Of a stretch of DNA of 64,000 bases, positions 35,891-61,290 are shown piece by piece (position 1 is the stretch's first letter; every line of letters begins with the position of its first letter). The DNA comes from Trichodelitschia bisporula. Lineage: Eukaryota; Ascomycota; Dothideomycetes; Phaeotrichales; Phaeotrichaceae. A program made the position numbers and the translations under genes. Location of the stretch: assembly GCA_010356995.1 (NCBI GenBank), contig ML996687.1, positions 1,397,148-1,461,147 of the forward strand, read 5' to 3'. The notes below the pieces were generated by a model that saw nothing but the letters and a program-made list of their open reading frames with translations, was not told the DNA's origin and did no database searches.

Positions 35891-35991
35891 TCAAGGGCTG
35901 ATCGAAAAAGTCACGTCCACCCCGGCGACATGACCGCTGCCAAATTTTGGTGAAGGTAGGACCTGACTTTTTCGGGTACCGTAGCCCTTGA
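35891..35991. mobile_element. MITE-like element, copy A
   Basis: 101 bp with terminal inverted repeats. The left end is TCAAGGGCTGATCGAAAAAG followed by TCA. The right end, read in reverse, is TCAAGGGCTACGGTACCCG followed by AAAAAGTCA. It is too short to code for anything. A second, diverged copy lies at 61195-61290. No target-site duplication is clear. It is probably a non-autonomous DNA transposon; the superfamily is not assignable. Confidence 0.7.
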
Positions 35992-36460
35992 CCCTCTCAC
36001 AAAGCAAAAGGCAACCTCCCACGCGCGCCCTTCCAAAGACTCCGCGAACACCACCCGCTCGCCGCATTGCGTGCTCAATTCCCCCCCCATCGCATTATCA
36101 GGTACACGTACCAACGCACGTTGCGTACTACGTAACATACTGTGGTATGGTGTCGGCCGTTCCAAGCAAGCACACACCATAGCGACAGCCTATGACGCAA
36201 CCGAGCCTCCGTTCCTGACGCGGCCCCAGCTGGCGAGCGGAAGCGGCTGCTGCAGGGCCCGCAGGTGCAGCGCGTGGGGCGGCGCGCGCTTCCCAGCCGC
36301 GCGCTAAATACGAGGCGTAACTCACCACGTAGGACCAGACTTGTGGTTATCACGACCATAGGGTTCGAGTCCTGACTAAGGAAGCTCTCTCGGGTATTCC
36401 ATAGCATTACGGCGCCATGCAGCGCATTGATATCGTCCTCTCCACCCCCACCACGGCCAC
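35992..36460. other. Intergenic 3' of sec59
   Basis: 0.47 kb downstream of the dolichol kinase stop. It holds a tRNA-like stretch (GTGGTTATCACG at 36343-36354, GGTTCGAGTCC at 36362-36372) that cannot fold as a tRNA. Confidence 0.5.
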
Positions 36461-39240
36461 CTACACCCTCACCCCCCTAACCAACAACCACAACACAACC
36501 GGCACGACAACATTATCATTCCCCCCCGTAAGCACCGCCTCCATGAAACTCGCTCCACACGCCGCAACCCCCATCCTCCCTAGAACACCCAACCCAGACT
36601 TCCCCTCCTCCACCCATCCTCCCGCCCTAACCCACCACCACCCCGCCCCCAGCCCGATCACCACAGCCAGAGCAAACGCCGCACTCCCCTCAAGACTCTT
36701 CCCCCCCACCCAAGGCCACTTCCTCCGTCCCACGCGGCGGCCCACAAGACTCGCCGCCGCATCGCCCAAGCCCACGCACACCACGCCCGCTATCAACCCA
36801 AGATCCCTCCCCCTAACCTCCCATTCATCCCACGCCCCCTCCCCCACACCCCATTCCCGTCCCGCGAGCGAAAGCCAGACAGGCACCGCACACCCAACCA
36901 GCAAAAAAATATGACTCACAACCACCGGCCCCCTCCAGTCCCGGCCATCCGTATACGGCGCCAGGAAGCGGGCGAGGGGCTTCGCGATCGGCGGGAGCGT
37001 GCTGGCACGGAGCAAATCGAGCAGTAGGAAAAGCACCAGCACGGCCCCAAGCGCCAAGCTCACGAACGCAGGGTCGATATAAGTGGTGGGGAGTAGCAGC
37101 GCAACAACCGTCCCATGGAACACCTTCCTCCTCGTATCAACCTCCACACGGGACGCGAGGCGCGTCACAATCCCCAGTGCCGCCGCGACAACGAGTATAA
37201 AATACCCACACATCCACAAGCGCGTCGTCCCCGCCCCGATCTCCTGACGGTACTGCTCGACCCACCCCCCCTCAACCTGCGTCTCCGCGTCCGGCAAAGG
37301 CGGCAAGGCGATCCACCCCCTAAGCCCGTGGTTAAACACCCAGAACCTGAACCCCCGGATATTGCCCAGAAAATACCCGATGAGCCAGCCGATCGGCTCG
37401 GCCCCACCCAGCGCACTCCTTTGAATAACCCATCTCGCCGGGCCGAGCGCAATAAGTCCCATGACCGCGTACACGTACACCGCGTACAGTACTTTCCTCC
37501 GCGTCGCTTGCGCGGGCGTAAGCACCAGGAGCGGGTTACCGCGGCGCCGCCGGCCCGTGCCCTCTTTCCCTTCCACGCGCACAGCCCCGGACGCGGGCAT
37601 CGTGTGCCGCCTCCGTCTGCCCCCTGGGCCCTCGCCAAACACCGGCGGCAGCGCATGCATGATCTCACTCCCCAGTCTACGCAGACTGGGCCTTGGCCTC
37701 CTCCGGCCCTCTTCGTCGTCGTCCGCGTCACTCTCCACGACCGGGCGCTTGCTCGGGCCCGTGCTGGCACGCGCGCGCCGGACGCCGTTCGCTAGCACGG
37801 CGAGGAAGAGTTGTCGCAGCCGCACCACTTGGCCTGCGCGGCGGAAGCGCCAGCGCGGAATGCGGGAGAGGGCGACGGCGGCGTGGAGCGCGGGCCCGGC
37901 GAGCAGGGTGAGGAGTAGGGCGGCGGGGATGAGGAGAGTGCTTAGGATGGTCGTTGGGGGGGTTGTAGCGAAGAGGGTAAGGTTAATGAGGGCGGTGGAG
38001 GTGAGGGCGAGTTCGGCGGGGAGGAGCGAAGTTGATGTTAGGGAGTGGAGGAAGGGGGTTAAAGAGGCGTGGAGGGGGTGGAGGAGGGTTAGGGTTTCGA
38101 GTGAGGGAGATGTGGGTGGTGTTTTAAGGGCATAAGGTGTTGGAGCGGAGATTTTGCTGAAGGTGTCGGTGTGAGCGGAGAGGATGGCTGGGAGGGTTGA
38201 GAGGAGCCAGTGTAGGTAGTAGCTTCCGTTCGCTGAATTCCAGGACCCGGGGATGAGTGCCGGTGGCAGTGCTGCGAGGCCGAGCACTATGTTCGCGAGG
38301 AGCGGTTCGGGGAATGTCCGGTGCAGCGAGAGCGCGACGAAGATGGGTAGGCAGAGCGGGTATATCAACGGCGCAGGATCAAAGACCGCAGGGACACGGA
38401 TCGCGGCGCTCAGTCTCCTCGCTGCAGTACGCTTCCACGCATACGCAACCAAGCGAACGGGATATAGGAGACATAGCCCGACAACAATAGCGCCCGCGAT
38501 GCGCAGCTCTGCTACACCGGTCAGCCCCTTCAACCCCAGATACGAAAGCACATACCTCTCCCCCAAACCCCAACCCCCGCCTCGCGCACAACCAACCCGC
38601 CCACAAACCCCACAAGCGCAACCTCACACAGCCTCCGCACAACCTCCGCCCTCCGCCGCACCCTCCACCTTTCCTCCCCTTCATCCTCACTCAACGCCGT
38701 CGGCGTAAGCAGTGGGCTGACCCCTGTCCCAACGCCCTTCCCCGCATCTTGCGCATCCCTCAGCCCCTTCCTCGGCCGCATAGCCGGCGCCGGGAGTGCG
38801 CGCACCAAACCCGTAAAACTATGTGCCGACCCGGGGCCAGAGGCATACCCTTGCGCACACGCCGACGCATACCCCGAGCCATAACCTCCAGGATTCAAAT
38901 CGAAGCTCTCGTCATCCGCCTCCGTGCCCGATTCGCTAGGACTAAGCGCGCGTGTGCGGGTTGTGGGTAGTGGAGAGGGTTGGGGGCGCGAAGTGGGGAG
39001 GGTGAGGCGCTCGCCGTGCTTGCGGCGGTGGTAGAGCTGGGGTTTGCGGTCGGGGAGCGGAGTAGGGTCGGAGGACGTTGCCGGGGCGGGATATGCTGGA
39101 TCTGCTTCCATCGTTGTAGCTTTTTGATGTCCTCTGGTCGTGAGTTCTGTATTCGGCGCGTTGCCTGCGTCCATGGCGGTGGAGGTGCCTTCAGCAAGGT
39201 CCCCTTGTGCATTCGAAGTGGGTAGCTGCGGCGGGACCAT
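36461..39240 (-). CDS. sec59: Dolichol kinase Sec59
   Basis: Two exons on - (39240-38556, 38511-36461) with a 44-nt intron (GTATGT, GCTGAC, GTAG) give 911 residues. The ATG at 39240 is the first in frame after non-ATG codons. The first ~190 residues are a soluble, disordered extension (PQLYHRRKHGERLTLP, SPSESGTEADDESFDLN, RPRKGLRD) resembling filamentous-fungal dolichol kinases. A polytopic membrane region follows. The CTP-binding/catalytic motif is at about 811-840: GDAAASLVGRR then WPWVGGKSLEGSAAF. HGTVVALLLPTTYIDPAFVS is another conserved block. The enzyme makes dolichyl phosphate in the ER with CTP, the carrier for N-glycosylation, O-mannosylation and GPI anchors. A basic loop (RRRRHTMPASG region) interrupts the membrane part. 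Confidence 0.92.
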
Positions 39241-39677
39241 TGCGCGCGGGCATTTCGCGTTCTGAGAGGATTGGTCGGGTGGTGTGATGTGTACGGATGT
39301 AGTGAGAGTTGAAAGAAAGTGTTTGCTGTTGCCGTGCAATGTAGTTCTTCACATGTGCTGATCTCGGGATCTGTCTCCTTGCTGGCATTCGTTGGGCGGG
39401 CGTTAAAAGTTCAAGCCACAGTGGCCCCGACCCTGGATGCTCAGCCCTGTGGAGCCGGGAGCGGTGACGTACTCGTAGGCATTGGGGGAAGCTCGGGCTA
39501 GCTTAGCAGAGCTAAAAAGACCAAAAGCGAACAAACCAAGAGCAGCAATAAATTGGCACATGCAGCAAGAAAGGGCGCATCAGAAGAGATCTTTTCACAA
39601 GAACGGTGGTATTTTGTACGGAGCGTCTATACACAGCTCGGCAGAGCTAATATAGGCACAATCCCCTAGCACAGCAT
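39241..39677. promoter_or_regulatory. sec59 promoter and 3' flank of the aminopeptidase
   Basis: 437 bp between two same-strand genes, so it holds the sec59 promoter and leader and the aminopeptidase 3' UTR. No classical TATA box stands out. Confidence 0.45.
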
Positions 39678-42600
39678 CTACTCCAGATACCCCTTCTTCT
39701 TCAACCACTGCTTCAAATCCTCCCCATCCCGCTCCACCCACTGCGACTTTGCGCGAATAGCATCCAAGCTCTGTGCCAAGCTCTGATCAAAGCCCTTCGT
39801 GCTACGCTCATTAAAGAACGCCTTGATCTGGTCAGAATGCTCGGGTCGCGTGAACCCGCTCGTGCATAGCGATACCACCGTGCCCAGCATCGTCAGACCA
39901 GGGGGAAGCTTCTTCTCCAACGCCGCCCAGTTCTCCGTCATCCACTTCCATAGCGCCTCAATGCCCTCACGATGCGCTCGCAGTCCGCTCATCGGGAGGT
40001 AGATGTCCTGGCCCTTGACCTCGTCGCTCAGAGGCAGAGAGAGCGTGCGCTGGATCAGCTCTGGGTCGTTAGCCCGGCCGATAGCGCGCAGCGCCGTGTT
40101 GCGCTCGTCGCTGGTGGCAGCAGTGCGGTACTCGTTGAGGATGACCTCGTACTAGGCAGTCGGTTAGCACAGCATTAGATACAAACTGAAGAAAACACAT
40201 ACCTCCTCCTTTCCGCCATGCGTCAGCGCAATGGCATACACGGAGCTCCGCAGGTTCGGATGGATAGCCGACTTGTCGCCCTTTTTAAGACCCGCAAACA
40301 TGTCAAACGCCGCCTTCTTGACGGTCTCGTCACCCGCCAACCCGGCGTGGACGAACAGCAGAGACTTGAACTGCTGCTCAATATGGCCATCCGACTCCTT
40401 GAACGTCCAGCCCAGCTCGTGCACCTTAGCACTGCTGAGGTCCAGCTGGAACTTACGCAGCGCTGCCTTGATCTTTGGGTCCTCGAAGTACCATGCACTG
40501 CGCACCGCGGACACACGGCCAAGGACCTCATCCCAGACGACGTACTCAGGCTCCGAGGTGAAGCCCTCCAGTAGAGAGAGAATGCCTGAGGTTTTCTGGT
40601 AGCCTGAAGCCGCAAGCGCACCGGCATCAGCGATCATGCCGGCGCGGTCCTCCACCGAAAGTAGGCCCTTCTTGGCCGCCTCGCCGAGCTTCTGCAGGCG
40701 CTCGGGGCTGTACGATGTGCGGTAAATACCAGCGTGATCGGCGTTGAGCTTGTAGAAGTCAAGGGGGACCTTGAAGCTGTCCTCACGCGTCGCGAGCGTC
40801 AGGTCCTCGTTGATACCATCCTTAGTGCGCAGGCCCAGGAAGACCGGAAACAGCGTCTCGTCCTCCTCGGGTTTGACGTCACCGGTACGCAGGAAGCGGT
40901 TCTGCTTAACGTGAATCGTCGAGTTCTTCTCGTCCTCTGTGACCGTCACGACGGGGTAGCCGACGTTCTTGGTCCAGACGTCCATGACCTCCTCGACATT
41001 CTTACCGCTAGCGTCACTCAGAGCGGCCCATAGATCACCCGTCTGCGTGTTGCCGAAGGCGTGCTTCTTCAAGTAGCGCCGAATGCCCTCCATGAATGTC
41101 TCCTCGCCAAGGTACTTAGAAATCATGCGCAGTACGCACGAACCCTTGGAGTATGAGATGGCGTCGAAAATCTGATTGATCTCGTCGGCGCGCTTGACCG
41201 GCACCTCAATCGGGTGGCTGCTACGCAGCGAGTCCAGTGCCAGGGCGCTCTGTAGGTTGTCCGTGACGTAGCCCTCCCAGACGCGCCACTCCGGGTAGAA
41301 CTCGTTGCAGGAATACCACGACATCCAGGTTGCGAAGCCTTCGTTGAGCCACAGCCCATCCCAAAAGTCCATGGTGACCAGGTTACCGAACCACTGGTGC
41401 GCCAGCTCATGCTGCACCACCTCGGCAACGCGCTGCTTCGTGCTGGCGCCGCTGGTCTGCTCGTCAAACAGTAGGTCGACTACACGGTACGTAATGAGGC
41501 CCCAGTTCTCCATGGCACCCGCGCTGAAGTCTGGAATAGCTACCATGTCCATCTTAGGCAACGGGAACTCGCTGTTGAACTTTTTCTCGTAAAACTCAAG
41601 AGTGCGGGCCGCCAGGTCAAGCGAGAAGCGTCCATGCTCGATATCACGGTCGGGCGTCGCGTACACACGCACCGGCACGCGGAACGCATCCGTCTCGATG
41701 ACGTTGAGCTCGCCGACGATGAAGGCAAGCAGGTACGTCGACATGAGAGGCGTCTCGCGGAATGTCACAGCCTTCTTGGTGCCAACCTCCTTCTCCTCGA
41801 CGGCGTCCATGTTGCTCAGGCACGTTAGGCTTTTGTCGGCAATGAGCGTGATAGTGAATTTGGCCTTCAGCGCCGGCTCGTCGAAGCACGGGAAGGCGCG
41901 GCGCGCATCCGTCGGCTCCATTTGTGTCGTCGCCATATAACCCGTCGATCCGTCAGCCTTCTTGTACGACGACCGGTAGAAGCCCGCCATGCTGTCATTG
42001 AGAGTGCCGGTGAACTTTTGCACGAGCTTCGCCTTGGTACCCGCCGGGATGGTCTCAGCAAAGCTAATCTTCGTGGTCTGCGAATCCTTGTCGTAAGTCA
42101 GCGACGGCGAGGCCGAAACAACAGTATCCCCCGCATGGACGGCCGTGGAGTGGATCTTAAGGCCGATTGAGTTGAGGGATATGGAGTTTGTATCTTCGAC
42201 GACGTCGAGGCTAGGACATTAGCTAGGTCTCAAGCTAGGAGTATCACCATACTCAATAACTACCTCGCCTTCGTACTCGAACGTCGACAGGTTCGGCTCC
42301 AGCGTCAGGTGGTAGTGCAACGGTTTAACGTTCTTGGGTAGCACCTCGCGGCCCATGCTCACGTCCACGCTAGCCGCGGGAGCCTCGTCGATGTGGCGGC
42401 ACATGGTGCGCTGGTACGAGCAAGCACGCGTGTGAATTTTTGGATTTAGGAGGTTGGTTTTGGCGCGGCGAGAGGTTGGAGGTTGAAGGGAGGAGGAGAC
42501 GTTGGAGGGGGAGGACGGGTGGGGTACGCAGGGCACATATTCGCGGGTGCCCCAGTTAAGCGCCGACGCGGCTAAGGCGCGGGAGCGGGCGCTGAAATAA

Positions 42601-42725
42601 TGGCGGCCAGTCGCCGCCCGTCCCACCAAACATGGCGATTGTCTTCGGCAAGCCGACACAGGCAGGAGATTGAAGCCGCCTGCCGCATTGGCGACTGATC
42701 GCCTAGCCGGGGCGAAGAAGCGCAT
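39678..42725 (-). CDS. ape2: M1-family zinc aminopeptidase (Ape2/Aap1 type)
   Basis: Three exons on - (42725-42253, 42210-40203, 40151-39678) with introns of 42 and 51 nt give 984 residues. The first intron uses GTATGG and restores EVVIDLDVVEDTNSISLN. Gluzincin motifs are present: GAMENWG at about 389-395 and HELAHQ (H425, H429), with the third zinc ligand in LWLNEGFATW (E448). A C-terminal ERAP1-like helical domain follows, ending KKKGYLE. It removes N-terminal residues from peptides. The first 106 residues are Arg/Ser/Ala-rich without a family counterpart and look like a mitochondrial presequence (MRFFAPARRSVANAAGG). An internal ATG at 42407 (MCRHIDEAPAA, then VSMGREVLPKNVKPLHY) would give the usual 878-residue cytosolic form. 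Confidence 0.93.
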
Positions 42726-44293
42726 TCCTCTTGATGCTTATCTGGCAGGGACGTATCTGTGACTTCTGGCAGGTGAGCTGGAGACCTTGTGGTGGCTCAA
42801 TGGCGCGCGCTCTACCCCGTTTGCGAGCTTTTGCCAGGAACCAGGGACGAAACTTTGCTCGGAGCATGCGGCCGGCCGGACATTTTTCCGCCCTAAGGCT
42901 ACGAGTATGGTGGTCGCAGTGTGAGGGAGAGGATCACGAAATATTCCAGCACGCTTCTCTTCGCTTGGATGAGGCTTTCCGTCGTCAAAGTTGTTTTCTC
43001 TACCCTTTTGCAGCGGCACAGCCTTCCTGCCTACTTCAGTTGAGGATAGCCGATGCATGCAGAGCCTAGAACTAAGGTTAGTTCTAGTCGATGGATTTGG
43101 GGGCGCAGCACTCGTGTTCGCGGGCAGGGTACGACATCAGGGGTAAGCTGCCATACTTAATAGGCGAACTTGATGCATTTACGGAGGTAGGCAGCCTGAT
43201 GTGCAGACGAACTCCCTTCTCCTGAGCTGTGAAAATAGGAGTGCTGCGAACACGGCGACGTTCGTTGAAATCAGCCTCCTGTGCGGCTGCATCGCCCAAA
43301 ACGGACGTCACACCTCATCTCAGCAGTGGCTACACAGGCAGCTTATGTCCCCGATAACTGACGACGTCTTTGGCATATATTCCATCAAATTATGGTCGTG
43401 CAGCTTTTTTCGCTTGCTACCGTTCCTCATCTATATATATAGTCTTCCTCGATCCTTCACTCCGGCTCCTGCACCGTGCACATGTCAAACAGGCTGTAAG
43501 GCGGCGCAACCAGAATGTCCGAGCAGGCCACGCCATAACAAGCAATATTGGCAAATGACGTGCGGGGTCCAAGCGTCGCGGATGTTTTTGTTCCTGAATT
43601 CCGCCCTAGAGATACCTAGGAATCGTGAGCATTCCCATACTAGGTACCGTATACGTAGTAAACAAACAAAGCAATGAGCAGTGCGGGGCAACTGAAGCTT
43701 TTGGTGCCACACCATCAAGGTGCCGAGGAGCATCATGTTCGCCGAAGTGAGTGGTTCCATTGGCATTATTAAGAGAGTCAGTCGGAAAAGCAGCGCAAGA
43801 AGGCTTGCAGTCCCGGTCTCGTGCACCAGTCTTGGCTCCAGTGGGGTTGGTCCAAAACTACGCGCTAAACCTTGACAGGACGGCTGGGAGCAAGGAACCC
43901 CCTGTTCCCATCGCCTTACCTTGCTCTTTTCGTCTGATCTCTTTCTCTCTCTCCGTCCTGTCTTGACTCCGCTGTCTCTCTCTTCTCCTCTCCCTTCATT
44001 CTTGGCCCGTATCGCTCGCTCACCAACATCTCGACCATCTTCTTTTCCCTCCTCTCGCCACACCTCACCTTCGCTACCACTCCCATTCACCCTCGCTTAC
44101 CACTCCGGGCCAGCAACTCCCCACCCCTCCCCACCCGTTCCCCACAGCCCGGTATTCTCCCTCGCTATGCGGTAGCCGATCACGTCCGCTTTGCTCCCCC
44201 GCGAGCACTACCCCAAAACCTACCACTCGCTACCAATCCCCCGCTCCAACATCAACACCAACGATCCGCAGCCATCCGGCAAACACCAGGCTG
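42726..44293. other. Divergent intergenic region
   Basis: 1.57 kb between the aminopeptidase (-) and a membrane protein gene (+), containing both promoters. A perfect 9-bp palindrome with a 4-nt loop (CTAGAACTA/TAGTTCTAG) lies near 43065-43086. The stretch 43920-44290 is C/T-rich, typical of the downstream gene's leader. Confidence 0.5.
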
Positions 44294-45152
44294 ATGTCCC
44301 CCAGGGTCACCAGCGGGGCTTCCCCGCTCTCCGCCATACTCCTGCTCCTCTCTACGTTGACCCTCATACCTACCGCGACCGCCCAGGCAGTTATCGACCA
44401 GTCTAAACTACCGTCGTGCGCAGCCTCGTGTCAACTGCTGAACGCCGCACAATCACTTTGTGTCCCACCGTCCGCGCCCGTGACGGGCCAAACCACATAC
44501 CAGACATGCTTCTGCAACTCCAATTACCTCACCCCGTTTAAGACGACGCCCAATGGTGTCTGCGACTCCGAATGCTCCTCCGCCTCGGACCGCACCGCCA
44601 TCCAGCAGTGGTTTCTGGGTCTATGCAACGGCGGCGCGGTCGTGACTCCGAGTAGCACAGACTCAGCAGCGGCCTCAACATCAACATCATCTTCGCCCAA
44701 GACACCCAAGGCCCCAACTTGGTCCGCCCCTCCGCCCCCTCTCCTATACCCCACTAACACCCCACAGGATATCCACTCATGCCCGTTGGGTAGCAATGGT
44801 AGTAGTCCTCTTAGTCGCCGCAATCGTAGCCATAATACTCGGTGTCTGGCTCCGGCGCCGCCACCGCCGCAAACACGACGTCACGAACTCGATGCTCGGC
44901 CCCGCCGATGCAGCTTCCGCGCTCCGCAATCGCCACCCTGACGCGCCGAGCGTAGGACACCCCCACCCGAACGTCATGATGAGCGGGGCGCGGGGACCAA
45001 CACCGATGGCGGAGGCAACGCCGTATGGCCAGCCTGCGCCACAGGAGCAGCACTCCGGGGGCGTGACGGGAATTCTTGGCCGTGCAGGGTCGAGGTTGCA
45101 GAAGAAGGCGAGTCGTGGGAAGAGTATGAGGAGTCAGCGGAGTAATCGGTGA
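44294..45152 (+). CDS. Single-span membrane protein with 8-Cys ectodomain, function unknown
   Basis: Two exons (44294-44721, 44768-45152) give 270 residues. The 46-nt intron has donor GTCCGC, weak beyond GT, and branch point ACTAAC. Residues 1-30 are a signal peptide (ILLLLSTLTLIPTATA). The ectodomain has eight cysteines (SCAASCQLLNAAQSLC, QTCFC, GVCDSEC, GLC), then a Ser/Thr/Pro-rich stalk. One membrane span (about 150-172) is followed by a basic stop-transfer RRRHRRKH and a cytoplasmic tail ending in basic residues. This layout resembles a family of uncharacterised filamentous-fungal plasma-membrane proteins. The cysteine count recalls CFEM domains, but spacing differs and I do not assign it there. 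A wall-sensing or surface role is a guess. Confidence 0.78.
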
Positions 45153-46175
45153 TAAACGACTGGGCGGCGGTTGTCTAATGTCCGACTTTTTGGAGAGGAC
45201 GATTTTATAGGTGTGTGGTGTACATCATAGCCGATCTGTGGCTGAAACGGCTGATTTTGCGTCATTTCTCTTTTGCGCGTGTCGTTTTTACGGGAGTCTT
45301 GGGCATGCGGATCCCGGTTTTGGACAGCGCGTTGGATCAGGTGGGCATGGTTTTGGACATTGGAAAGCGTCCTGGGAGGCAAAATAGTACAGTCTTTGCA
45401 TGGAGATGGTGTCGTTTAAGGTTGTAAGGGGTTCCTGACGAGATGGAAGATAGGAGTGATATATTGACGGAGTGTGCGCTCACCTCCGGCTAGGCCACTA
45501 CGCCTTATTTTAGTGTTGAATAGCATCTCGCCGCTGCATGCTCGCCGCGGCGGTCTGGTTTTTACGTTGTATTATGCCTGAGAATGGACCGGTCTCACAG
45601 GCAGCGAACAACTGGATCATAAGGTACGTAGCTCCTATTACTCTATCTAACACGTAGGCGTACCTCGCTAACCGGTACTTTAACACCGTAGCAATGGTGA
45701 TACACGTCTTTGCTGCTGCTTCGCCCGAATATCTTCGTTGCATTGGCACTTACTGGCGCCCGAGATTCTCTCCCACATTGAAATGTGCACAATTCGAGTG
45801 CCGCACTCCACCAGCTGCTTGGAATGCGCTCGGATAGACACGAAGTATTCAGTCGGCTACATCGATCTCGGTGGTATACGACGACGAGAGGGGGCAAGCG
45901 AAGCAAGCGGCAAACGAAGATGTGGACGAATCGCCGGCGATGATGGTGTGTGATAACGCCGGGAGAACTTGCGACTGTCCCGTACAAGTTGATTTGGAAG
46001 GTCCAACTGGCAGTCCCCTCGTACCTGCCCTTCTGCCCTTCAAATGCCAGTATGCCAAGGATAGATGTACTCCATGTACTCCAGGTGGTCGCAGCGGGTG
46101 CCAGCAGACCTCATTCCCACGCAGGCCTCCAGTCACTACCAAAATTGCAGACGCAGACGTAGCCCTTTCGCCTCG
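45153..46175. other. Intergenic between membrane protein and secreted protein genes
   Basis: 1.0 kb. The 3' UTR of the left gene and the promoter of the right one. Small open frames overlap on both strands without recognisable content. Confidence 0.45.
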
Positions 46176-47295
46176 ATGTATCAATTCATCAGAACCCTCC
46201 TTGTCATGTGCGCCGTCGGTCTGGCCGCCAGTCTTCCTCAACCGAAGCATGCCACAGCTTCCTTACAGATATACCCCGATACAAATCTAGTCCATGCGAG
46301 AATCCCGGATTCCAGTGGTTACTCCCCTAGCCCCTTGGGTCTCCCCTCGGTCTTCCGCGCCAAAATCCACAAAGTTCGACAAGCGAAGAGCCAGCCTCCG
46401 GAATGGCAAGACAACGTTTGCCGCGGGCGTAAACTCATCTCTATCATGAAGGCGGCGACTTTGGAGGAAGCAGCAGCGAGCAACGGCGGTAGAGACCTTT
46501 CGACCCCCTGGAAGGATATAAATGATGAGACCCTCACCAAGTACGGCTGGACGCTCAGGGAGCAGCGCATGGGAACTGAGGTCGCCGGAGTCGGAGAACG
46601 GAAGCTCCAAAGTGATCTAGGCATCCAGGGCGTGTCTCCCATGGGTCTTATCGCGCACCATAACAACCCCTGGACAGATGATGCGGGAGTCAAGCGAAAG
46701 GTTCGTCATCCATTATATGCTCCTTAGGTTTCGGTTTAACTGATCGCTCTGTGTTTAGGAAACCTATGGCATTTACCAAGACATCTTCAACCCTGCATTC
46801 GGACTGATTGTCGCGGTAATCATCGAAGGCCCATCGTACAGAGCCGAGGAATACGGACTTTCGCAGAGTAACGTCCCTCCTCTCAAGCAATGGGCAGATT
46901 TTGCACACCTCCTCTGGATCCGCCAATGCGAAGCTAAGGGCGTTGACCCTAAGGGACTGCGCTACGTCATTCAAGAAAACATTGAAAACGAAGAGACAGT
47001 TGCACTCATGAACTGGGCCGTGTATTCCACTGGCCAGAAATTTCGAGGATGGAAAGACCGCGGTCCGATTTACTTCTCCGCGGATAGCGACGAAGGCGCT
47101 GCTCTCATCGGATCGGCTAACGGCCGTGGGACGGCGTGGCTCCTTGCGCAGCATAAGGACACTCTCGGCCACAAGACGATCACAAGGGTTGCCGTTTTCC
47201 TTACCGACGTGGACGGGGACAAGGACTACAGGTCGTACTCGAGCAAGATGGAGGACATCCAGATCAACGCGCTGTACATCATCGAAAACGTGTAA
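46176..47295 (+). CDS. Secreted protein of a fungal family of unknown function
   Basis: Two exons (46176-46700, 46759-47295; 58-nt intron, GTTCGT...TTTAG) give 353 residues. The chosen ATG begins a clear signal peptide (MYQFIRTLLVMCAVGLAAS), so upstream in-frame ATGs at 46065 and 46074 are less likely. The second half carries a pattern I recall from many Dothideomycete proteins of unknown function: LKQWADFAHLLWIRQC, LRYVIQENIENEET, and then a block ending SANGRGTAWLLAQHKDTLGH and KTITRVAVFLTD. Most relatives I recall lack a signal peptide, so a secreted version may be a host- or substrate-directed form. No catalytic motif is visible. A 238-codon frame on the opposite strand is a shadow. Confidence 0.75.
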
Positions 47296-50206: not shown

Positions 50207-50283
50207 ACTCGGAGGGTGCTGGAAAGACCTGCCTGCTCATTTCGTGTACTACGGACAAGTTCCCAAGCGAAGATGTTCCGTTG
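50207..50283 (+). pseudogene. Orphan exon fragment of a Cdc42/Rho-type GTPase
   Basis: After an acceptor CAG at 50204-50206 the frame reads [20 protein letters not shown] and VP. This is nearly the P-loop to switch I start of Cdc42 (family: [23 protein letters not shown]). The first P-loop glycine is lost, and after VP the sequence no longer resembles a GTPase: no TVFDNY, DTAGQE or CAAX tail follows within 1 kb. Upstream, an open stretch ending at donor GTAAGT (50163) could splice to it, but it does not encode the usual KCVVVGD. Best read as a captured or left-over exon of a host GTPase gene. Whether it is transcribed is unknown. Confidence 0.7.
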
Positions 50284-50939
50284 AGACGCTGGAATACCAA
50301 CATGTGTATATATTCCGGTAGGCATCTCTCGTAAGTACTCTCACATCGACTCGGGCTGCTCCTTACCTCTAAGCAGGCAAGCCCGGCAGTACTCGTGATG
50401 AGATCTCCTATATGGCCATCCACCGGTAGGAGAAGCAGACGCTAGCCGTGATTTATTAGTGAGTGCTGATGCACTTGAAGCTGGAGAGCAAGCTGATGAT
50501 CCTGCGACCAGTGATGCAAGTGAGCCACTGTTAGAGAATGCTCACGAACTCGATATTGTTTGTGAAGCTACCCTTCCACTAGTAAGGACGGTGTGGGAGC
50601 CTGCGATTCCGTATATGCCTGAGATTCTATAAGCATCTCTCACATTGAGCGAACGGGTGCTCTACCACTCACAGCACTTACTATCGTGCTAGGCCTCAGT
50701 GATGGAGCTATAACACGTCCATCGGCTTCCGAAACTCACGAACCTCGAGCGACCTCACAATATCGGGAGCCTATCGAGTTTATATATCCTGGAGTACCCC
50801 CTCCAACGAACTTTTTCATCACCGCTCTCGAGCTATCTGCTAAAAACCTTGAAGCACTAGCCCCTTCCAGCTCGCGCTTCGGAGGCTTTTTGATCTGATA
50901 GCATTTTTCTTCTCTCCTATAAACTTCTTCTTCGCTGAG
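50284..50939. other. Region with open coding-like stretches
   Basis: An open frame without ATG at about 50427-50632 (+) has acidic content (DPATSDASEPLLENAHELDI) and another at 50686-50898 reads PIEFIYPGVPPPTNFFITAL. Neither connects to the GTPase fragment or the next gene by a clear splice. Function unknown; possibly remnants. Confidence 0.35.
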
Positions 50940-51929
50940 ATGGCTCCCCGCCGTCCCACTAAGAAGCGGGTTGCTGCTAAGCACTGCATGGCGGCGACAG
51001 TGATAAACCATCCCCCGAAACGTCGCCGGACCAACGCCGAGGGCGCTTCCGAGCGGGTCCACACCCCGGAGTCGCATGAAGACCTCCTGACTTCACTGGA
51101 GCCGGAGCCGCTGCCAACGATCCGGCACAACCCAGATTCGTGGGCCTGGATGGACGAGGCAACTCTGGAGAGGCATGTGGAGGCGCTGGATAGATATCCG
51201 GAGCAGCCAATGTTTATTCCGGATCCTTTCCTCATACCACCGATCCGGAGGTCACTGGCCCGGAGGGCACCGTTCCACGCGGACGATGCCGCCACCCCGG
51301 ATACGATGGAGGTCGATCCGCTCACCCCGGCTCCCGCCGAGTCGCCCGGCACACCCTCCGGGACAATGGATGTGGACGACACGGCCTCCTCCGACAACGA
51401 AGAGCTCATGTCGGACACCGAGGAAGTCCCCCCGGCCTGGCGCGTCCCTAGGCTCCGGGCCCCGCCCGCCACCATATCCGAGTGGATTTTCGGCCGCCCC
51501 TCGGCTCGCAGTAGCCCACCTCCGGCTACGATCGATCCGGTGGTGCTCTCCCGTCCCGCGGTAACGTGGGAGCCCGCGCAGCTCGAGTGTCGGTTCCCGC
51601 CAGCGGGCACCTTTAGTGTCACGCCGCCAACGAGCGAGGGACGCCGGGGTGCGATCGCGGAGGGCATGAGGCCACGTCCGGCTCCGGCTGGAAGCTTGAG
51701 ACCCGCGACGCGGCCAGGTCCTGCGCCTGGGCCTGCGCCGACGGCTGGGGCACCCGCACCTGCACCGGCGGGTAGAGGCATCACACCAGCTTCCGGGACA
51801 TTCTCGGTTACGCCAGGAACTGGGCGTTTCCTTGAGCCCGGCAGCTCCTCTAGGCCTGCCCCAGCGCCAACAGATATCTGGTCTCCTAGGTCAGAGTCCA
51901 CCGAGCCAGAAGATTCCGACTCCGACTAA
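50940..51929 (+). CDS. Proline-rich orphan protein, probably nuclear
   Basis: A single exon of 329 residues, ATG directly after a pyrimidine-rich leader. The basic N-terminus (MAPRRPTKKRVAAKH, then PPKRRRTN) looks like a nuclear localisation signal. A middle segment has ordinary composition (WAWMDEATLERHVEALDRYP), then an acidic DVDDTASSDNEELMSDTEE stretch. The C-terminal half is disordered with two copies of a GTFSVTP motif (AGTFSVTPPTSEGRRG and SGTFSVTPGTGRF) around a Pro/Ala/Gly tract. It ends in the acidic SESTEPEDSDSD. No domain is recognised; it looks lineage-specific. A 353-codon frame exists on the opposite strand, but its composition fits a shadow and the + frame has the sensible charge pattern. 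Confidence 0.55.
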   Translation: MAPRRPTKKRVAAKHCMAATVINHPPKRRRTNAEGASERVHTPESHEDLLTSLEPEPLPTIRHNPDSWAWMDEATLERHVEALDRYPEQPMFIPDPFLIPPIRRSLARRAPFHADDAATPDTMEVDPLTPAPAESPGTPSGTMDVDDTASSDNEELMSDTEEVPPAWRVPRLRAPPATISEWIFGRPSARSSPPPATIDPVVLSRPAVTWEPAQLECRFPPAGTFSVTPPTSEGRRGAIAEGMRPRPAPAGSLRPATRPGPAPGPAPTAGAPAPAPAGRGITPASGTFSVTPGTGRFLEPGSSSRPAPAPTDIWSPRSESTEPEDSDSD

Positions 51930-52856
51930 CACGGTCGCAGGTGGACTCAGCGCGGGATTCGCTGGACGATCGGCCGCCAAAGGGGTTGCGCTGGGAGGAC
52001 TGCTAGGGACGAGCGGGATGCTAATCCTGCTGGTCAGGCGTCTTCTAGTGCGACCTCCCCTAAATGTAATCTCACGATCACGGGAAGGGGCAGGGGCTGG
52101 CTCCTCCGGCGTTTTTTCAGCGGCTAGGATCTCGGGATCGGGCTGAGCGCGGGACAGGGCACGGGGTGTAGAGTGTGATCTAGAAATAAAAAAACAATAA
52201 GACGACCTGATTACCAAATGATGTATCTGCTGTGAAACTGACTTATAAAGGTGACATTGTGACTCAAGACGGTGAAATCGCCATTCCCGACCCCACTGAT
52301 GATAAAAGTGAAAGGCATCAGGTGCAAGATGGTCGCGCACATATCCCTCTAACAGAGAGTAGTTCTGGTAAGCTAAACAATATAGGAGTACATGACAGAC
52401 AATGTAACGATCAGCTTGCCTGCCGAGAACTCCCTCTCGACTCCTCTTCAAGAAAGACCTCTCGTCCGGTCACGCAGCCTTGGCGTCTTGGCAGCCTTAT
52501 ACCTAACCCACCAGTCAAAGAATCGACTCCCCAACTCGACTGTCCCACAACCCCACGCTAACATCTCTCACCACCAGCTTCACCAGCTTCAACACATCAC
52601 ACAATGAACGTAGATCCCATAACTACATACCCTTCCCACCATAAACCCCCCAAATGCCCCCCCCAAAAAGCATCCATTACAAATACATCACACATAAGCC
52701 CCCCACCCGTTCCCCCAACCACACCAACAAAAACCCTACATACAAGCCTTTAAAAAAAAAAAACCCCGGGGTATATAATAAACGCGCCTCACCAAAATCC
52801 CAAGATCCCCTCCCCAGCCCCTTCTATCCCCTCCTCAGTCCACCCCCTCCCCACAT
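51930..52856. other. Convergent intergenic region
   Basis: 0.93 kb between the ends of the Pro-rich gene (+) and the RhoGAP gene (-). The right part is A/C-rich with an A12 run near 52752-52763. No gene is supported. Confidence 0.5.
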
Positions 52857-54873
52857 TTACTTCCTCTCAAACCCCGGCCCCCCAACCCTCTGCCCAACAA
52901 GCCCAACCCCAACCCCCATCATACTACTCTCCCTCCGATTCTTCTTCCCCGCCCCAGCACCGCCCCCTCCACCACTAACAACAACCTCCCCCCCCGCACC
53001 AACATACACACTACTATTCCGATTACTCCTTCCCCCGGCACGGGGCTGCTCCACCGTGAGTCCGCCCGCATATCCCTGCGAAGGAGGCGTCCCCCCCGCA
53101 AGAGCATTCAGACTAGCGAATGCATCGCCCGGGCCTCCTCCGCCGGTCGAGGCTTGCGCGAGGGGACGCGGGTACGTCCCATCAGCCGCCAAGTACGGTG
53201 TCTGGTACACACTTTGCTGTTGTTGCTGCGCCTGTTCGCGCTGGGCCTGCGCCTGTTCCCGCTCGCGCAACTCGCGTTGCTCGCGCGCCTGCTCACGCTG
53301 CTGCGGCGGGGGATACACACTCCCCGGCAGCCCGAGGCCCGCCCCTCCCCCGCCCATCGTATGCCCACCCATACCCATCCCACCTCCCATACCGCCCGGC
53401 CCTCGTCCCGGCCCAATCCCGCCACTATAACTCGCCGACTGACCCTGACCCTGGGCTTGCGCCTGAGCAGCATACAACGGTTGAAAGCCCGGGAGGCTAT
53501 TCGAGAATCCAGGCGTGTACAGCGGGGTAGGCAAATCCGAGAACATTTGGTGGCGGGGAGAGCGGATTGCGTCGCTTGCTTGGAGGTTATTTTGCGCTTG
53601 TTGGGCGAATTGGGGGTCGCCGGTGACTGGGGGGCCGAAGATGGAGGCGTAGTCCGTGAGGAAGAGTTGGATTAAGGGCGCGGGGATGTTGAGCGTGGGG
53701 GCGAAGACGATTGCGACTAGACCGGTTAGCTGGGTGGGGCTACAAGATGGGAGTTAGGGGACTTACCATTCCGCACATTCATCTTATTAACATCCGCATG
53801 GTCCGCCACATCCGCCAGGTACTCACACAAAAAGCTCAACAACTCCGCATTCGCACGGGGCAGGCGATGCACCAGCGCATTAAACGCGGCAACCTTGCGG
53901 GCCCGATCATCCACATCCAGCACCTTCAAAAAATCCAAATGTAACTCCCTTGTCAGCACGCTAGCAGGCAGTTCGCGCAGATACAGCTTCAGCAACGACG
54001 CCACGGCATGCACGTCGTAGTACTCGCCGTCGAGCAGGCGGACATCGCCCTCAGCATTGAAGCGCTCGCGCAGCGCCTTGATTACGTTCTGCGAGCCGCT
54101 GAGGCGGAAAATGCCCTCTTCGCTGATAGCCATGCGCGCTTGCAGGTACTCGATGCAGCGGAAGACGACGGCGGGGAGGTAAGCCTCCACACCTGCAGGC
54201 TGGGAAACTTCAACGGCTTCGAGGAGGGGGATGCCGAAAACAGTCCTATTTGTGGCCGGGCGTCGGAAGTCGGAAGATACGGAGCCGATGCTTTGACCAT
54301 ATATTTGCCCGGGAGCCAGGTCGCTCGAGCTGCGCCCGCGGAAGCCGAAGATGGAGCGCTTCTTTTCTTTTGCGGGGGTTTTGTTGCCCCATAGACCGGC
54401 GTCTTGGATCACGGTGCCGTTCGTCGGGCCCGAGATGACGATGTGGCCAGACGAGCCTTGCTCACGGTGGCGCGCACCGTTGAGGTTTGGTGAACCCATG
54501 GCTCGCTCCTTGTACAACGGCCCACGCACAGGAGTGTCACCCGGAACCGTCTCCTCGTAGCTCATACCCGGTACATAAACCTCCTCCGGCTCGGGTGTCT
54601 GCATCGTGCGCTGCGTGGGCCGCTCCTTGAGATCCCGAGAACCGGCCGAGTTCGGCCCTGAGCCGACCTTCTGGTCCTGCTTGCCCTCGTGGATGTCGAC
54701 GTACTGCAGCAAAGCTTCGACCCAAGCATCGCGCTCGACGTCGCTTTCCGCGCAAAGCACGTGGCGGACAAGCGCATTCGAGTCCTTGCGCTTGGGCTCG
54801 AGAATCAAAAACGCATGCCGGTACTGATTGTCGTTCTCTTCGTCTTGGCCAACCGGAGACCCACTCTGCTGGC

Positions 54874-54908
<35 letters not shown>

Positions 54909-57900
54909 CTCTGCTTGCCAATCTGCGCCTTGAAAAGCTTAATCGTCCCAATCTGCGGTCCGCCCATACTGTCGTAGTAGCGCAGCTCCGGCCCATCAAG
55001 AATGAAATACCGCGCCTTCCACCCGCCGAAATTCTTGCCCCGCTTCGTCAGGTACCCCTCACGACGCGGCTTCGACGACGGTGAAGACGACGCCACGGCA
55101 GGGATGACACCGGCAGGCGCCACCTCAGCCGGCGCAGTCAAGTCCTCTTCCGCGCCCATGACGCCTGTGGAGAAGAACTCGCAAACCACGAGCGCTGCCT
55201 TTTCCGTCAGCGGTGTGTCGAGAAGCATGTCAAAGTAGGCATCTAGAGCGGCGCGACGCGCGTCAATCTTGGCGGGAGCATGGCCGGCGAACAGGTTCCT
55301 GTCCGGGAGCTTGGCGTCAAACTGGCAAAGGTTCTTCACCTGCTGGTGCAGCGCAGCCAGTGCGATAGTTGTCTTCTCAAGGCGCCACAGCTGGCGACTA
55401 TCTGAGCGCGCATAGATACCAAGCAGGAACACCGGGTCGTCTTCGATATTTTGCAGGAGGATGCTGTTACGCGACGGCCGCAACCGCGATGAAAACACCT
55501 TGACGTCGATGACCGGGAGTGCGTTCGGCGGCAGCAGTAGTCCGGGATACAGCTCCGACGCCAATCCGCGAAACACCTTCTCGTCCGCAGGCGAATCCGT
55601 AAACCGCCCACTCGGCGGCGTACCATCGGGTGATAGGCGCAGTGAATCGGTTGCGGGTGTGTTCTTCTCGCTACTCGACGCACTACGCGCATGCAAGACC
55701 TCGGGCGTCTCGCGAGGGGCCGAAAACAGCGGTGCAGGCATGACAGACGGCGAAGCCATGAATCCCAAGCCCTGCGCCTGAGGCGGAATCATCGGCGAAA
55801 GTGGCGGCGAGGCAATTGTATGAGTCTTCGGAAGACGCGGAGAGGGTGCACCGAACGGTCGATCGCCGGGACGAGGACTCACCGGCAGACCGGGACTGCG
55901 CAGCGGGCTGGTGCCTGGGTTGCGGAGGATGACGGTCGACGTGATGGACGATTCAGAGCCAATTGGGCTGAGGAGCGAGCCGAAGGATGGCGGTGGCCGG
56001 GACTGGCGGGGTGGAGGCGCAGTAACCTCGGGCTCCTTGATCTCGGGTTGGTCCTGGAAGACAGGTGGTATGGTAGGTGATGCCGGCGGCTTGCTCTTGC
56101 TCTTCTTCGACTTTTTAGATGCGCTCCGTGCCTCTTCTCGCTGAGCGGCGATAATCTCACGCGCGCGCTCGTCCGCTTCACGGGTGCGTCGTCGGCCGCG
56201 GGCGAGTTCGTCTTCCTCGAGTGTCTCGGCGATGGGGTCAACAGTCTGCTGCTGCTGCAGCGGCGGCGAGCGGGTAGGCTGCGACAAATTCAGCGGAGCA
56301 GGGGCGTTCTTGCGCGGAGTCTGGCGGTTACGCGGGCTGAAGTTGCCAGTATTACTGACGGGAGTGGCCTCGATGACAGCGACGGAGGGTGGAGCGGTAA
56401 GAGCCGTCGGTGTGGCCAGCGGAGGTGAGACGGGTGAGACAGGCGACACGGGACTAGGAGCGATTTCTACAATCTGGGTCTTGAGGTCGGATGTTTCGAG
56501 GCGCATTGCATTGACGCGGTTCGGATCGCCTGGCGTTACCGAGCGCTCCCGCGAGACGCTAGTAGTGGTAATGGGCGACACGCCATGGCTCGACTCGGGG
56601 TGGGACGCGGAACCAGTGTCCGTCTGGATTGGCGAGGGTGTTGGTTTTGGCGGGTCCGGCGACTCGCGCGTCTCCGGCGTTGCGGCGGGTGCCACATTCT
56701 TTGTCTGTTCCTTCTTCGACGCCTCGGCCGGTCTCGACGTTGCGGGGGATGCGCTGTGGTCGCGATCCAGCACCGAGTCCGGCCGCGTAACAGCCGCATT
56801 CGACTTTTCAGCAATCTGCTCCTTCAGTTTCCTCCGATATCGATCCTTCTCTTTTAATGCGCGTTCCAAGTCTTTATTCAGCCCTAGTATCATGGTCCGT
56901 TGCTTCTCCACCAACCGCCACAGCTGGGCATTATGCGAGTCGGCAGTCTGCTTATCCCTCCAGACCTTCTGCAGCGCCGCCTCGACGCTCCCCGCCGCAG
57001 CAATCAGGCCCGCGACATCCCCGCTGCCGTCTTTGTTCCCCGCCGGCGTTGACCGCGCCGACTGCGACGCATTCGACGAGATGGACGACACGGCGGAGTC
57101 GATGGACGGATTGCGCGGCGGCATGACGGGGCGCGGATCGGCGCGACTGGGCAGCATGGCATACGCGGGCGACGAAGGCGGCGAGAACCCGAGGCCGGGG
57201 AAGAGACTCGAGGGCGCAGAGACGTTGCGCAGCTGCTGCGAGTGCGACTTGAGATCGGGAGGCGATGCAGGGCCACTGCTGCTGTTGGTGCTGCCGGCTA
57301 AATGATTAGGATTGTGGAAGTTGGGACTATGTGGACTCGTGCGTGCGCTGGTATCGTAGCCAAGCAGGGCGTCGAGGCGTTCGCGCGGCGAGCGGGGTCC
57401 TTCGAGGGTAGCGGCGTGAAAGACGAGCGGGGAGAAGGAGGGGGAGAGGGGAGAATAGAGGGCAGCGTCGGTGCGCCCGTAAAGCTTTGTTGTATGCGTA
57501 GTAGGCGCGGCGGCGGAGGTGTTGATGCCGAGACTGCTGGTGTTGGCGGAGTGGGAGAGGGGATTTGGCCGTTTGCGACGCGAAGGATCGGAGGCGGATG
57601 GAGGTGAGGGGAAGAAGTTCGGTGAGACGGCTGCGGCACCGGACCCGGCTTCTCTCAGAGCGCGGATGCTGTCCGCGAGCGTGGAGGCGGATTTGGAGGG
57701 GCGGAGGACGGAGGAGGGGGAGGGAGTTGAGGGAGACGGTGATGCTGACGATGGTGATAGGACATGAGACGAGAGGTATGAGGAGCTGTGTGCGTAGGGT
57801 GGTGGTTGTTGAGAGTGGAGAGTCTGTGCCTGTGCCTGTGCCTGTGCCTGCGCCTGTGCCTGTGCCTGTGCCTGTGTCTGAGCGTATGCCTGTCGCTGGG

Positions 57901-58084
57901 AGTGGTGATCAGCTGGTGGTTGGGCTGATGCAGCAACAGCTGCTGCTTGAGCCAGTGTCGGCGCTGGTACTGCTGGTGGTGGTCCTGTGGGTGGTGCTGG
58001 TGCTGGTACTGGTTGTGCTGTTGGTGCTGCTATTGCTCCTCCAACTGGTGCTGAGGCGCCAGTTGGGCCAGTCGTTTGCGACAT
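52857..58084 (-). CDS. bem3: Bem3-type RhoGAP with PX, PH and RhoGAP domains
   Basis: Two exons on - (58084-53767, 53716-52857) with a 50-nt GTAAGT intron give 1725 residues. The ATG at 58084 is preferred because the frame further upstream has no ATG. Order: a disordered N-terminus with a (Gln-Ala)n repeat; a coiled coil (about 370-430, VWRDKQTADSHNAQLWRLVE); a PX domain (about 840-975, LQNIEDDPVFLLGIYARSDS); a PH domain (about 1005-1130, REGYLTKRGKNFGGWKARYF) containing a polyglutamine insert; and a RhoGAP domain from about 1280 with the arginine finger in EEGIFRLSGS (about 1329). The intron falls inside the RhoGAP domain, joining KMNVRNVAIVFAPTLNIPAP. A Gly/Gln-rich tail follows. It turns off Cdc42 at polarity sites, reaching membranes through PX and PH. 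Confidence 0.94.
54875..54907. repeat. (CTG)11 trinucleotide repeat, polyglutamine in the PH domain of bem3
   Basis: Eleven exact CTG triplets (CAG on the coding strand), lengthening a polyglutamine loop between PH strands. Uninterrupted, so it may vary in length between strains. Confidence 0.9.
57824..57877. repeat. (CTGTGC)9 hexanucleotide repeat encoding Gln-Ala in bem3
   Basis: Nine units, two with one changed base, giving alternating Gln and Ala in the disordered N-terminus of the RhoGAP. In-frame hexanucleotide arrays change length without breaking the frame. Confidence 0.9.
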
Positions 58085-59801
58085 GGGTTGGGCGGGCGGG
58101 GAGGGGGGGGGGGTGTTGGCCTTGTGGTCCTGTGTTTCCCTTGTCTGGGATTGGGGATAGACAACTCTTGCGGCCCTGCAAGAGATCTCTCTCCCTTCCA
58201 ACCCACTACTCTCACCCTCACACAAATCACACAATTCTCTTTCTCTTTCTCTTTCTGCCCTAGGGCCGGTCCTGTTCCACCAGTCCCGTTTGTCTTGTCC
58301 TGGTCCTGTCTCCGTGCCTGTTCCTTGTGCCTTATCCGGACCCAGTCCTGTCCTTTCAAATGATCTTCTTTCTCTTTCTCTGTGCCTTCTTCTCTCCTCT
58401 CACTCGGTTTCCTGCTCTGCTGTACCCACGGACACCCCAGTTCTTCGTGTCTGATTGCTGCGACGGGTTTGGCGACTGGCCGCGTCGCAGGGCGTGTCAA
58501 GGCACGGGAGGCATGGGCTGAGAGGTCACCGGGGGTGGATCAAGCAGCGGGCGGGAAGGAGAGGGGGGATTGCGATTGCACGATTGTTTCGTCCGGAATC
58601 CGCGAAGAAAAATTGGAGAAGGAAGAAAAAGGCAGATGGCGACGTGTTAGGGTTTTGAGGTGAGATGCGAATGGGATGCAAGAGATGCAAGATGGGCCTA
58701 CGAAAGTGAAAGTGGAGACGAGATGCTTGATTGCTGCACTCTGGCTCTCTGTCCCATCTCGGCCATTCAGCCCAAAGGCTTGCTCTTTTGCAGGGGCGCT
58801 TAATGAGCTGGGGGGGATGGAGTGGTGGAGGGAGAGCAGACTGGGGGGAAAGGGATAATGGTAATTGTGGTGTGCAACAGCTTCAATTCCTGCTCGACAA
58901 TCAAACACACTTTGATCTACTTCATCCCCGGCCTGTTCACTCTGCTGTCACGATTATCGACCGTTTTTTTTTTTTTTGGTGAGTTTCGTCACATTTTCTC
59001 CTCCCGACGCCATGATGAACCATCACCACCATCTCCGCCATCACCATCACCTCCGCACTCCACAAACCTTCACCTCCCCCAAACAAGACACAGGTGAAAC
59101 CTCCCTCGTGCCCATCGATGGGCGCCAACCACACTTTCTCATTGGCCCACCTGCAAGATGAAGGCTTCTGCGCCTGCCGTACCCTCCCTTCCACGCCGGT
59201 CAGTTCACGAAGCACATCACAGCGTCTTCGTACGGGCCGCAAACACCTGGGAATCCCAAATAAACCCTCACCTGCAAACACCCAACATCCCCCAACCCCC
59301 TCACAGCTCACCTCCTCCCCCCCATCATCATCACCCAAAAACCCCACAACGTCCCCTCCAGCCGACATCCTCTCATCAAGCAATTGGCCAATCCTCGCCA
59401 ACGCCGCCTCCTCCACACCCCCTCCCGCGCCCTGCCCGCCAAAACTGAGGAACCTGACAAATCCCCGCATCGCAAACCACCCCAATCGGGTCATCCTCCT
59501 CCCCCCATCTCCATTTGCCCGCATGGCATGGCCAGCATGCAGCATGCAGGCGAAAGACAGACCAGACCAGGCCAGACCGAGCCATCCACACCAATGCAGC
59601 ATCTCAGGTACCAGCAGCAATCAGCGCAAGGGTCCATCGAATAAACCTCCGCGTTCGGAGCATGACGGTCCCGCGTGCACGATACTCCTCGGCTGGCCGT
59701 GAGCCGAGCAACGTGCACCGCGCTCACACATCCATATACATCAACCGTCGCCTTACCACCAGCTAGACGAAACTTATCTGCCACACCCGCACCCGCTGAC
59801 G

Positions 59802-59836
59802 CCCCCCCCCCCCCCCCGCCCCCCCCCCCCCCCCCC
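59802..59836. repeat. Poly-C tract, C16-G-C18
   Basis: Thirty-five bases with a single G at 59818. On the - strand this is a G-run able to form quadruplexes. Exact length in an assembly is unreliable. Confidence 0.85.
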
Positions 59837-60226
59837 AACTCCAGTGCGAAGTAAATAGCCCAAGCAAGAGATATACAGCCCCAACCTATATTACCCGCAG
59901 CTTTGCGCGCGGGCTCGCAGCGGCGCCGGCCCCCCTGGCGTGTGCGTCTTCATTTCCGCATGCGCCGCGCGGGGGTGTCGTCTACGCGGGCCAGAGGGAG
60001 TGGCGGGAGGGCTGTGAGCCTCGTGATGGTTGCAGATGCAATTAAGCATAATAGGTCCGAAATAGGCGGTTCACTGACCGCTGTACTAGAGATAGCAAGA
60101 CGTCGGCCGTCTTCGGTGCCATGTACATCCGTAAGATGCAACCTGTCAAAATCGCCTGCTCAAACAGCATCGCGACCCGCGCCCCCTGCGTACTGACTCG
60201 GAACTTTTACGCCAGGGATGCGGGCT

Positions 60227-60260
60227 CCCGCAGCCGCGCCCGCGCCCGCGCGGCTGCGGG
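60227..60260. repeat. Perfect 13-bp GC hairpin
   Basis: CCCGCAGCCGCGC (60227-60239) pairs exactly with GCGCGGCTGCGGG (60248-60260) across an 8-nt loop. It lies in a gene-poor interval. It could be a terminator-like structure or a palindrome without function. Confidence 0.8.
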
Positions 60261-61194
60261 TTCGGGGACGTCTGACGACGGTGAATGTATACTGAGGTAT
60301 GCCGCGAACCGAAGTCATGTAAAACCACTGCAGGCAACCCTCGAGGACATCGAGCCTGAACCCACCGCCGTCATCGCGGCCCACTCCCACGCGCGAACCC
60401 GAGTCTAGTTCTAGCGAGGGTCGATGACGGACGTCAGTCCGCGCACTCGAGCCCGACGCCTGCGCTGCAAACGGCCTTATTCCTTAAATCCTCCGCCCCC
60501 GCGAATGCCGTGTAACGTGCCATAAATATCCGGTTAGTTGGACTTTGTGCGATGGCGGGAGGGAGACGCGCGGTTGTTTCAACCATGAGGCGAGCGTGCG
60601 GTCCGGTTGGACGGCGGCGACGGTGGAGGCGTGCAGCGCGGGTATGGCGTGGAGGATGGTTGTGGTGCTGGTTTTGAGATTTGCTGTGCGGGATGCAGGG
60701 CGGTTGTGATGCTGTAGAAGCGGAGGAGGTTCGTAGCTTGATGAAAATAGTGTATTTTACGTCGTTCCTCGATGTCAGTTTGGTGTTGGTGCAGGATAAG
60801 GCTGTAAGGCCAGATGTCTTGGCGTTTTATATCAGCCTCACCTCAACTGCCATTCCCACGATGTGAAGAACCGAAACAAGAGATGATGTCTCTTCGCCGT
60901 TGTTATGATTTGAGGATGAGCACCCATAGGTCTTACATCAGCTGATATTATGGCAAACCGTCTTCGTGAGCAGTTGATGGAATTGAAGTATGTATGGCTG
61001 TAGGCTTATGCTATGGCAACGACTGCTGAGTGAAAGTGTTTCGAAAGACGAAGAACAAGAAGAGGTGAGCGGCGGAGCCGCTCGAGACCATAAATGCCGG
61101 CTGTGCTGGTGTGCTGCCATAGGCTCCTTCCTTAGATAAGAATGCTCCTTCCCTGTATCTACATCATGTCTCGCCGAAGTAGCAAGCCCACCGC

Positions 61195-61290
61195 GGAGGG
61201 CTAATCGAAAAAGTCATGTCCCTACCCGCCGAGAGACCTCTGCCAAAATTCAGGTGGAGGGGCGGCATGACTTTTTCTGGTAGCCCTTGA
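61195..61290. mobile_element. MITE-like element, copy B
   Basis: 96 bp. The left terminus reads AGGGCTAATCGAAAAAGTCA and the reversed right terminus AGGGCTACCAGAAAAAGTCA. The centre shares CTGCCAAA and a following GGTG with copy A at 35891-35991. It has lost the outermost TCA on the left. It sits about 230 bp from the 3' end of prp28. Confidence 0.7.

Follow-up and report, generated by a model that had tools for sequence, protein, structure and literature searches.

A dispersed family of miniature inverted-repeat elements in Trichodelitschia bisporula, with a 3-bp, mostly GNC, target duplication

The stretch analyzed here (the window) comprises 64,000 nucleotides of the Trichodelitschia bisporula genome (assembly GCA_010356995.1, contig ML996687.1, positions 1,397,148 to 1,461,147 of the forward strand), and its genes include an ATG1-like kinase and a DDX23-like helicase, both in keeping with a fungal source; the tail of the kinase looks like that of Pezizomycotina. 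Two short repeats with inverted termini, copies A and B, lie beside predicted genes: copy A is ∼470 bp past the end of the open reading frame (ORF) 36461-38623 on the minus strand, an ORF without a Pfam match, and copy B is ∼230 bp past the DDX23-like DEAD-box helicase ORF. An earlier note, made from the letters of this DNA alone, had proposed the pair as a miniature inverted-repeat transposable element (MITE). Our analysis of the whole genome leaves little doubt that copies A and B belong to a dispersed MITE family whose insertions make a 3-bp duplication, mostly GNC, at GGNCC.

The shared ends in inverted orientation and the similar centre described in that note were seen in both intervals, and we refined their limits to 35892-35990 and 61195-61289. 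Copy A (35892..35990, plus strand, 99 bp) is a complete element of F1, the main MITE subfamily, and differs from the F1 consensus by 17%; its left terminal inverted repeat occupies 35892..35918 (plus), its central motif CTGCCAAATTTTGG lies at 35937..35950 (plus), and its right terminal inverted repeat occupies 35959..35990 (minus). The unequal terminal spacers of this copy are real: the right spacer reads GGGTACCGTAGCCCTTG instead of the usual GGGTAGCCCTTG, a 5-base insertion that has a counterpart among the aligned F1 copies only at C11:304613, where the inserted sequence is different. Copy B (61195..61289, plus strand, 95 bp), also a complete F1 element, differs from the consensus by 21%, with its left terminal inverted repeat at 61195..61221 (plus), its central motif CTGCCAAAATTCAG at 61240..61253 (plus) and its right terminal inverted repeat at 61264..61289 (minus); its first two bases have decayed to GG instead of CA. 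Both copies are recovered by nhmmer with the F1 profile, of which they are themselves members (copy A, 88 bits, E 1.7e-26; copy B, 75 bits, E 2.4e-22). Across the window, the end sequence AGGGCTNNNCGAAAAAGTCA has three matches with ≤3 mismatches, one at the left end of A and one at each end of B, where 0.13 are expected and 0 of 100 shuffles reach three, and GAAAAAGTCA occurs exactly four times in the 64 kb, once per arm of A and B. Five subfamily profiles, run at E values up to 10, picked up nothing in the window beyond A and B. The target duplication is retained by neither copy; A and B are ordinary decayed insertions, with no demonstrated job.

Two copies in 64 kb had suggested many in the genome, and a dispersed family was indeed found when we searched the window's own assembly (25.65 Mb, 30 contigs): BLAST gave at least 22 matches for copy A and at least 17 for copy B. 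Searches for the ends were set against controls. The exact pattern CCAAGGGCTN{3,6}GAAAAAG had 28 matches against 0 in the reversed control, a second exact end pattern had 45 against 0 in its control, the 13-base end core with one mismatch had 142 against 16, and a degenerate 24-mer of the end with up to 3 mismatches had 247 against 9 in the reversed control. We fetched 97 loci and parsed 56, the other 41 being, by their coordinates, repeat visits to the same places; at least one element was parsed in 45 of the 56, and the 11 that gave none include L094, whose element had already been counted from L008. The 54 elements so parsed (81-134 bp) are short and non-coding and carry terminal inverted repeats, the build of a MITE. 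The ends common to the family are CAAGGGCT-N(3-6)-GAAAAAGTSRTG, and the end consensus from 78 arms is GGnCCAAGGGCTAnnCGAAAAAGTCATGTC. For annotation, the family accounts for 54 or more small repeats of the genome, and probably for over 100, to judge by the 247 end matches.

Within these constant ends, about five related groups can be distinguished by their interiors, five being a working figure drawn from centre motif and length without formal clustering; several elements match no group well. Subfamily F1 (about 94 bp, with a CTCTGCCAAATTTTGG centre) includes both window copies; F2 (also about 94 bp) has symmetrical AGGT/ACCT arms; and F3, F4 and F5 measure about 106, 84 and 124 bp, respectively. 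Because the F1 copies have diverged from their consensus by 7.5-21% in 26 of 28 cases, and by 29% and 35% in the remaining two, the family looks old. Two F1 copies (L022 at C19:603400 and L032 at C6:486142) have in common an insertion holding GACTAGTTCTAG before the centre, which marks a sub-lineage. In L100, L050 and L102, of the longest subfamily, a sequence close to the end core recurs inside the element (CCAGAAAGTTGTGGCC in the case of L050); it may be a subterminal binding repeat. Two further loci, L098 (G000:C3:1572690-1572900) and L099 (C4:114010-114220), have in common an end-like motif together with the sequence beyond it; we rejected them as family members, since the similarity exceeds an end and looks like a larger, different duplicated repeat.

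The flanks of the elements reveal the mark of insertion: a 3-bp duplication, mostly GNC, within a palindromic GGNCC. The flanking 3-mers are identical in 20 of the 54 elements, compared with 4.4 expected (0 of 20000 shuffles), and the free middle base matches on both sides in 37 of 54, compared with 13.5 expected; an exact duplication is not retained in the other 34. The same signal is present in 13 held-out elements, with identical 3-mers in 5 (1.2 expected, shuffle p 0.0012) and an agreeing middle base in 9 (3.9 expected, p 0.0035). This held-out set was read by eye, leaving aside L098, L099 and L102 (which has a shared GTC), and taking the second element alone at L105. The register of the duplication was examined in the near-intact set (37 of the 54 elements), where positions further outward show no excess agreement. 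A 5-bp duplication of the whole GGNCC is therefore disfavoured relative to 3 bp, positions -5/+1 and -1/+5 being without excess agreement; identical 5-mers do occur above chance (4 of 54, 0.9 expected, equalled in 201 of 20000 shuffles), as they must, the 3-mers being part of them. A 2-bp duplication adjoining the terminal heptamer was seen in 0 of 54. Many copies, constant ends and a short target duplication were what the earlier note had named as support for its MITE interpretation, and all three were observed.

The elements are also clustered. Among 52 elements, drawn from the full listing of ends that have ≤1 mismatch, four pairs of neighbours lie less than 1 kb apart, compared with 0.10 under uniform placement (0 of 5000). 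Simple tandem duplication is argued against by the fact that neighbours can be of different subfamilies, as in a cluster of F2, F1 and F2 at C15:559086-559715. Some elements stand directly back to back: positions 1-241 of L102 (G000:C1:89330-89570) hold two elements of the longer subfamily joined as CCTTG-GTC-CAAAG, with a gap of exactly GTC, and at L051 the sequence running on from a right end is GCC, then CAAGGGG. The junction pattern CCTTGGNCCAAGG occurs at 8 exact places, compared with about 2.4 expected by hand calculation at the same base composition, and two of these places (C17:610873 and C6:851407) fall on an end among the matches listed for the degenerate 24-mer; allowing one mismatch raises the count to 110 forward matches, compared with 53 in the control.

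How might such stacking arise? A DDE-type transposase from an autonomous element, now absent from the assembly or unrecognised in it, would bind the ends and excise the MITE; the target would be opened as G-GNC-C (duplicated bases between the hyphens), the MITE joined in, and repair would then yield the 3-bp duplication. The outermost bases of the element are C on the left and G on the right, so that GGNCC is rebuilt at both junctions. Because each insertion would leave GGNCC on both sides, the next elements could insert directly beside earlier ones, and after insertion both arms would drift freely. We infer that the rebuilt target is the cause of the clustering, which would offer a simple and testable account of how MITE clusters form. 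That the family represents a DNA transposon lineage with a G-GNC-C target absent from the sources consulted, two fresh targets per insertion, back-to-back stacking and a transposase forming a new group is a speculative and on balance doubtful proposal; if true, its two fresh targets would account for the clustering of different subfamilies.

The position of both window copies 3' of a predicted gene raises a different question: could these palindromes be hairpins held by selection in gene flanks, as a structured RNA, a 3'-end or terminator element, or a protein-binding palindrome? Both copies fold better than shuffles as single-stranded DNA (z -4.5 for A, -5.2 for B), and the arms are slightly better kept than the interiors (0.12 and 0.157 in F1, 0.102 and 0.118 in F2). 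In F2 (10 copies), changes on both sides of the arms affect 8 of 260 cells, compared with 2.4 expected, and 4 are complementary; this excess may reflect unrecognised sub-lineages. In F1 (26 copies), by contrast, the arms decay independently, with both-side changes in 9 of 673 cells, compared with 9.6 expected, and 3 complementary, a pattern that speaks against a terminator or hairpin RNA, and arm positions 9-11 are mismatched in the F1 consensus itself. Structured RNA was rejected on this independence and because Rfam has no match in 35000-62500. The earlier note had remarked that such elements in gene flanks can alter promoters or transcript ends. Across the genome, none of the 54 elements lies in a called coding block, whereas random positions in these loci fell within one in 289 of 2481 cases; the blocks were scored by a codon model for which eight ORFs of the window served as training set, a conservative procedure that leaves 34 of 54 elements without a called neighbour on either side. 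Among the neighbours that were called, no preference between 5' and 3' gene ends was seen (10 five-prime and 12 three-prime neighbours facing elements), so that a clear 3'-end bias is missing too. A selected hairpin would, in addition, not be expected to carry a target duplication. We see no convincing sign of one in these sequences and consider this explanation extremely improbable.

If the copies are MITEs, which transposase moved them? In the end-pair analysis, 245 listed places (100, 100 and 45) were merged into 168 distinct ends. Among these matches, 27 pairs of ends lie up to 130 bp apart and 7 lie 131-12000 bp apart; in 6 of the latter the two ends belong to different MITEs that are neighbours, and the seventh pair includes an end that is weak and partial, so that no long element with family ends was seen among the 168 ends listed. 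The ORFs beside the unpaired ends L081, L026 and L038 are not transposase-like by eye, no Pfam scan having been made of them. A six-frame search of the genome, made regardless of introns, gave 0 matches for DDE_Tnp_4, for which the control matched in 1 of 14 genomes. Transposase_21 and Plant_tran also had 0 matches each, but no control genome matched either of them, and the Plant_tran zero is uninformative. The hAT dimerisation domain was detected at three places and the DDE_1 domain at one; a DDE_1 and a hAT dimerisation domain lie ∼2 kb apart at G000:C23:90264-90599 and 92434-92625, likely a transposon-rich spot, and C26 and C29 carry the other hAT domains. A fitting transposase emerged from none of the DDE_Tnp_4, Transposase_21, Plant_tran, hAT and DDE_1 scans, which did not extend to the transposases of Academ and Zator. 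The full transposase between the same ends that the earlier note had suggested looking for was thus found neither among the ends listed nor in the domain searches: the autonomous partner is either missing from this assembly or present there in a form that escaped detection or has decayed too far. The ends, the target and the length of the duplication together provide a precise signature for seeking it in related fungi.

The ends and the duplication also bear on the superfamily. A PHIS-type transposase (PIF/Harbinger, Pangu, Nuwa) acting on a new GNC target class is plausible, if short of probable. In most PHIS groups the duplication is 3 bp long, and the NuwaII target C-TNA-G is formally like G-GNC-C (PMC4482050); on the other hand, GNC is absent from the six PHIS target classes given in that source (TWA, AT, AAATTT, ANT, CWG and TNA), PIF/Harbinger ends are described there as usually having A or G first, where ours have C, and both DDE_Tnp_4 and the uninformative Plant_tran are without a match. 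Movement by another 3-bp-duplicating superfamily, whether AcademX, CACTA/CMC or Zator, is an equally serious candidate. Zator elements make 3-bp duplications, in keeping with our register, and CACTA elements end in CACT(A/G), whereas the ends here are CAAGGGCT; the CACTA domain Transposase_21 is without a match in this genome, as it is in the control genomes. Duplications of 3 or 4 bp are given for AcademX (PMC10045372) and of 2-4 bp for CMC (PMC4482050), their sequences being unstated in these descriptions. Under the rule applied by Repbase, an equal duplication length together with agreement over the first 11 bases, with at most 1 mismatch, assigns a family to a named superfamily (PMC4455052).

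A hAT or pogo MITE, for its part, we regard as very unlikely, even though domains of these types exist in the genome. The ends of hAT elements often resemble CA(A/G)GG, a likeness that counts in favour of hAT, and pogo duplicates TA, which counts against pogo, given the 3 bp here. The duplications of hAT are given as 5-8 bp (PMC4482050), whereas agreement in our register is confined to 3 bp. Only one of the 168 ends listed is on C23, C26 or C29, at ∼67 kb from the nearest hAT or DDE_1 domain, and the parsed element at C23:288210 is ∼196 kb from the nearest such domain; the listed ends with 2-3 mismatches reach to contig C9, and more decayed ends near these domains are possible beyond it.

It is instructive to compare this family with systems already described. 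A text search of the literature for CAAGGGCT in the context of fungal transposition returned nothing on the subject, judged by titles. Guest, reportedly a 98-bp inverted-repeat element of Neurospora crassa (Yeadon and Catcheside 1995), would be similar in length and build, going by the title alone. MITEs with common ends and differing interiors are known in a Dothideomycete: according to the description in PMC4522978, those of Mycosphaerella graminicola (Zymoseptoria tritici) are short, have inverted repeats, and include several families with a common end and duplication and different interiors. The duplication stated there for 12 of 13 families is TA, CT, 5-6 or 8-9 bp, in none of them the 3 bp found here (PMC4522978). 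NuwaII and Pangu, within PHIS, come nearest in their target: as described, they resemble our family in duplicating a 3-bp palindrome whose middle base is free, and NuwaII also has one conserved base on each side of it, the difference being that their duplications are TNA or ANT rather than GNC (PMC4482050) and that DDE_Tnp_4 is unmatched in this genome. Seen against these systems, the family is a genuine, if rather ordinary, mobile element, with GNC possibly a new target class, set apart by description from those of PHIS, so that a GC-rich palindromic target class may be added to the elements that duplicate 3 bp.
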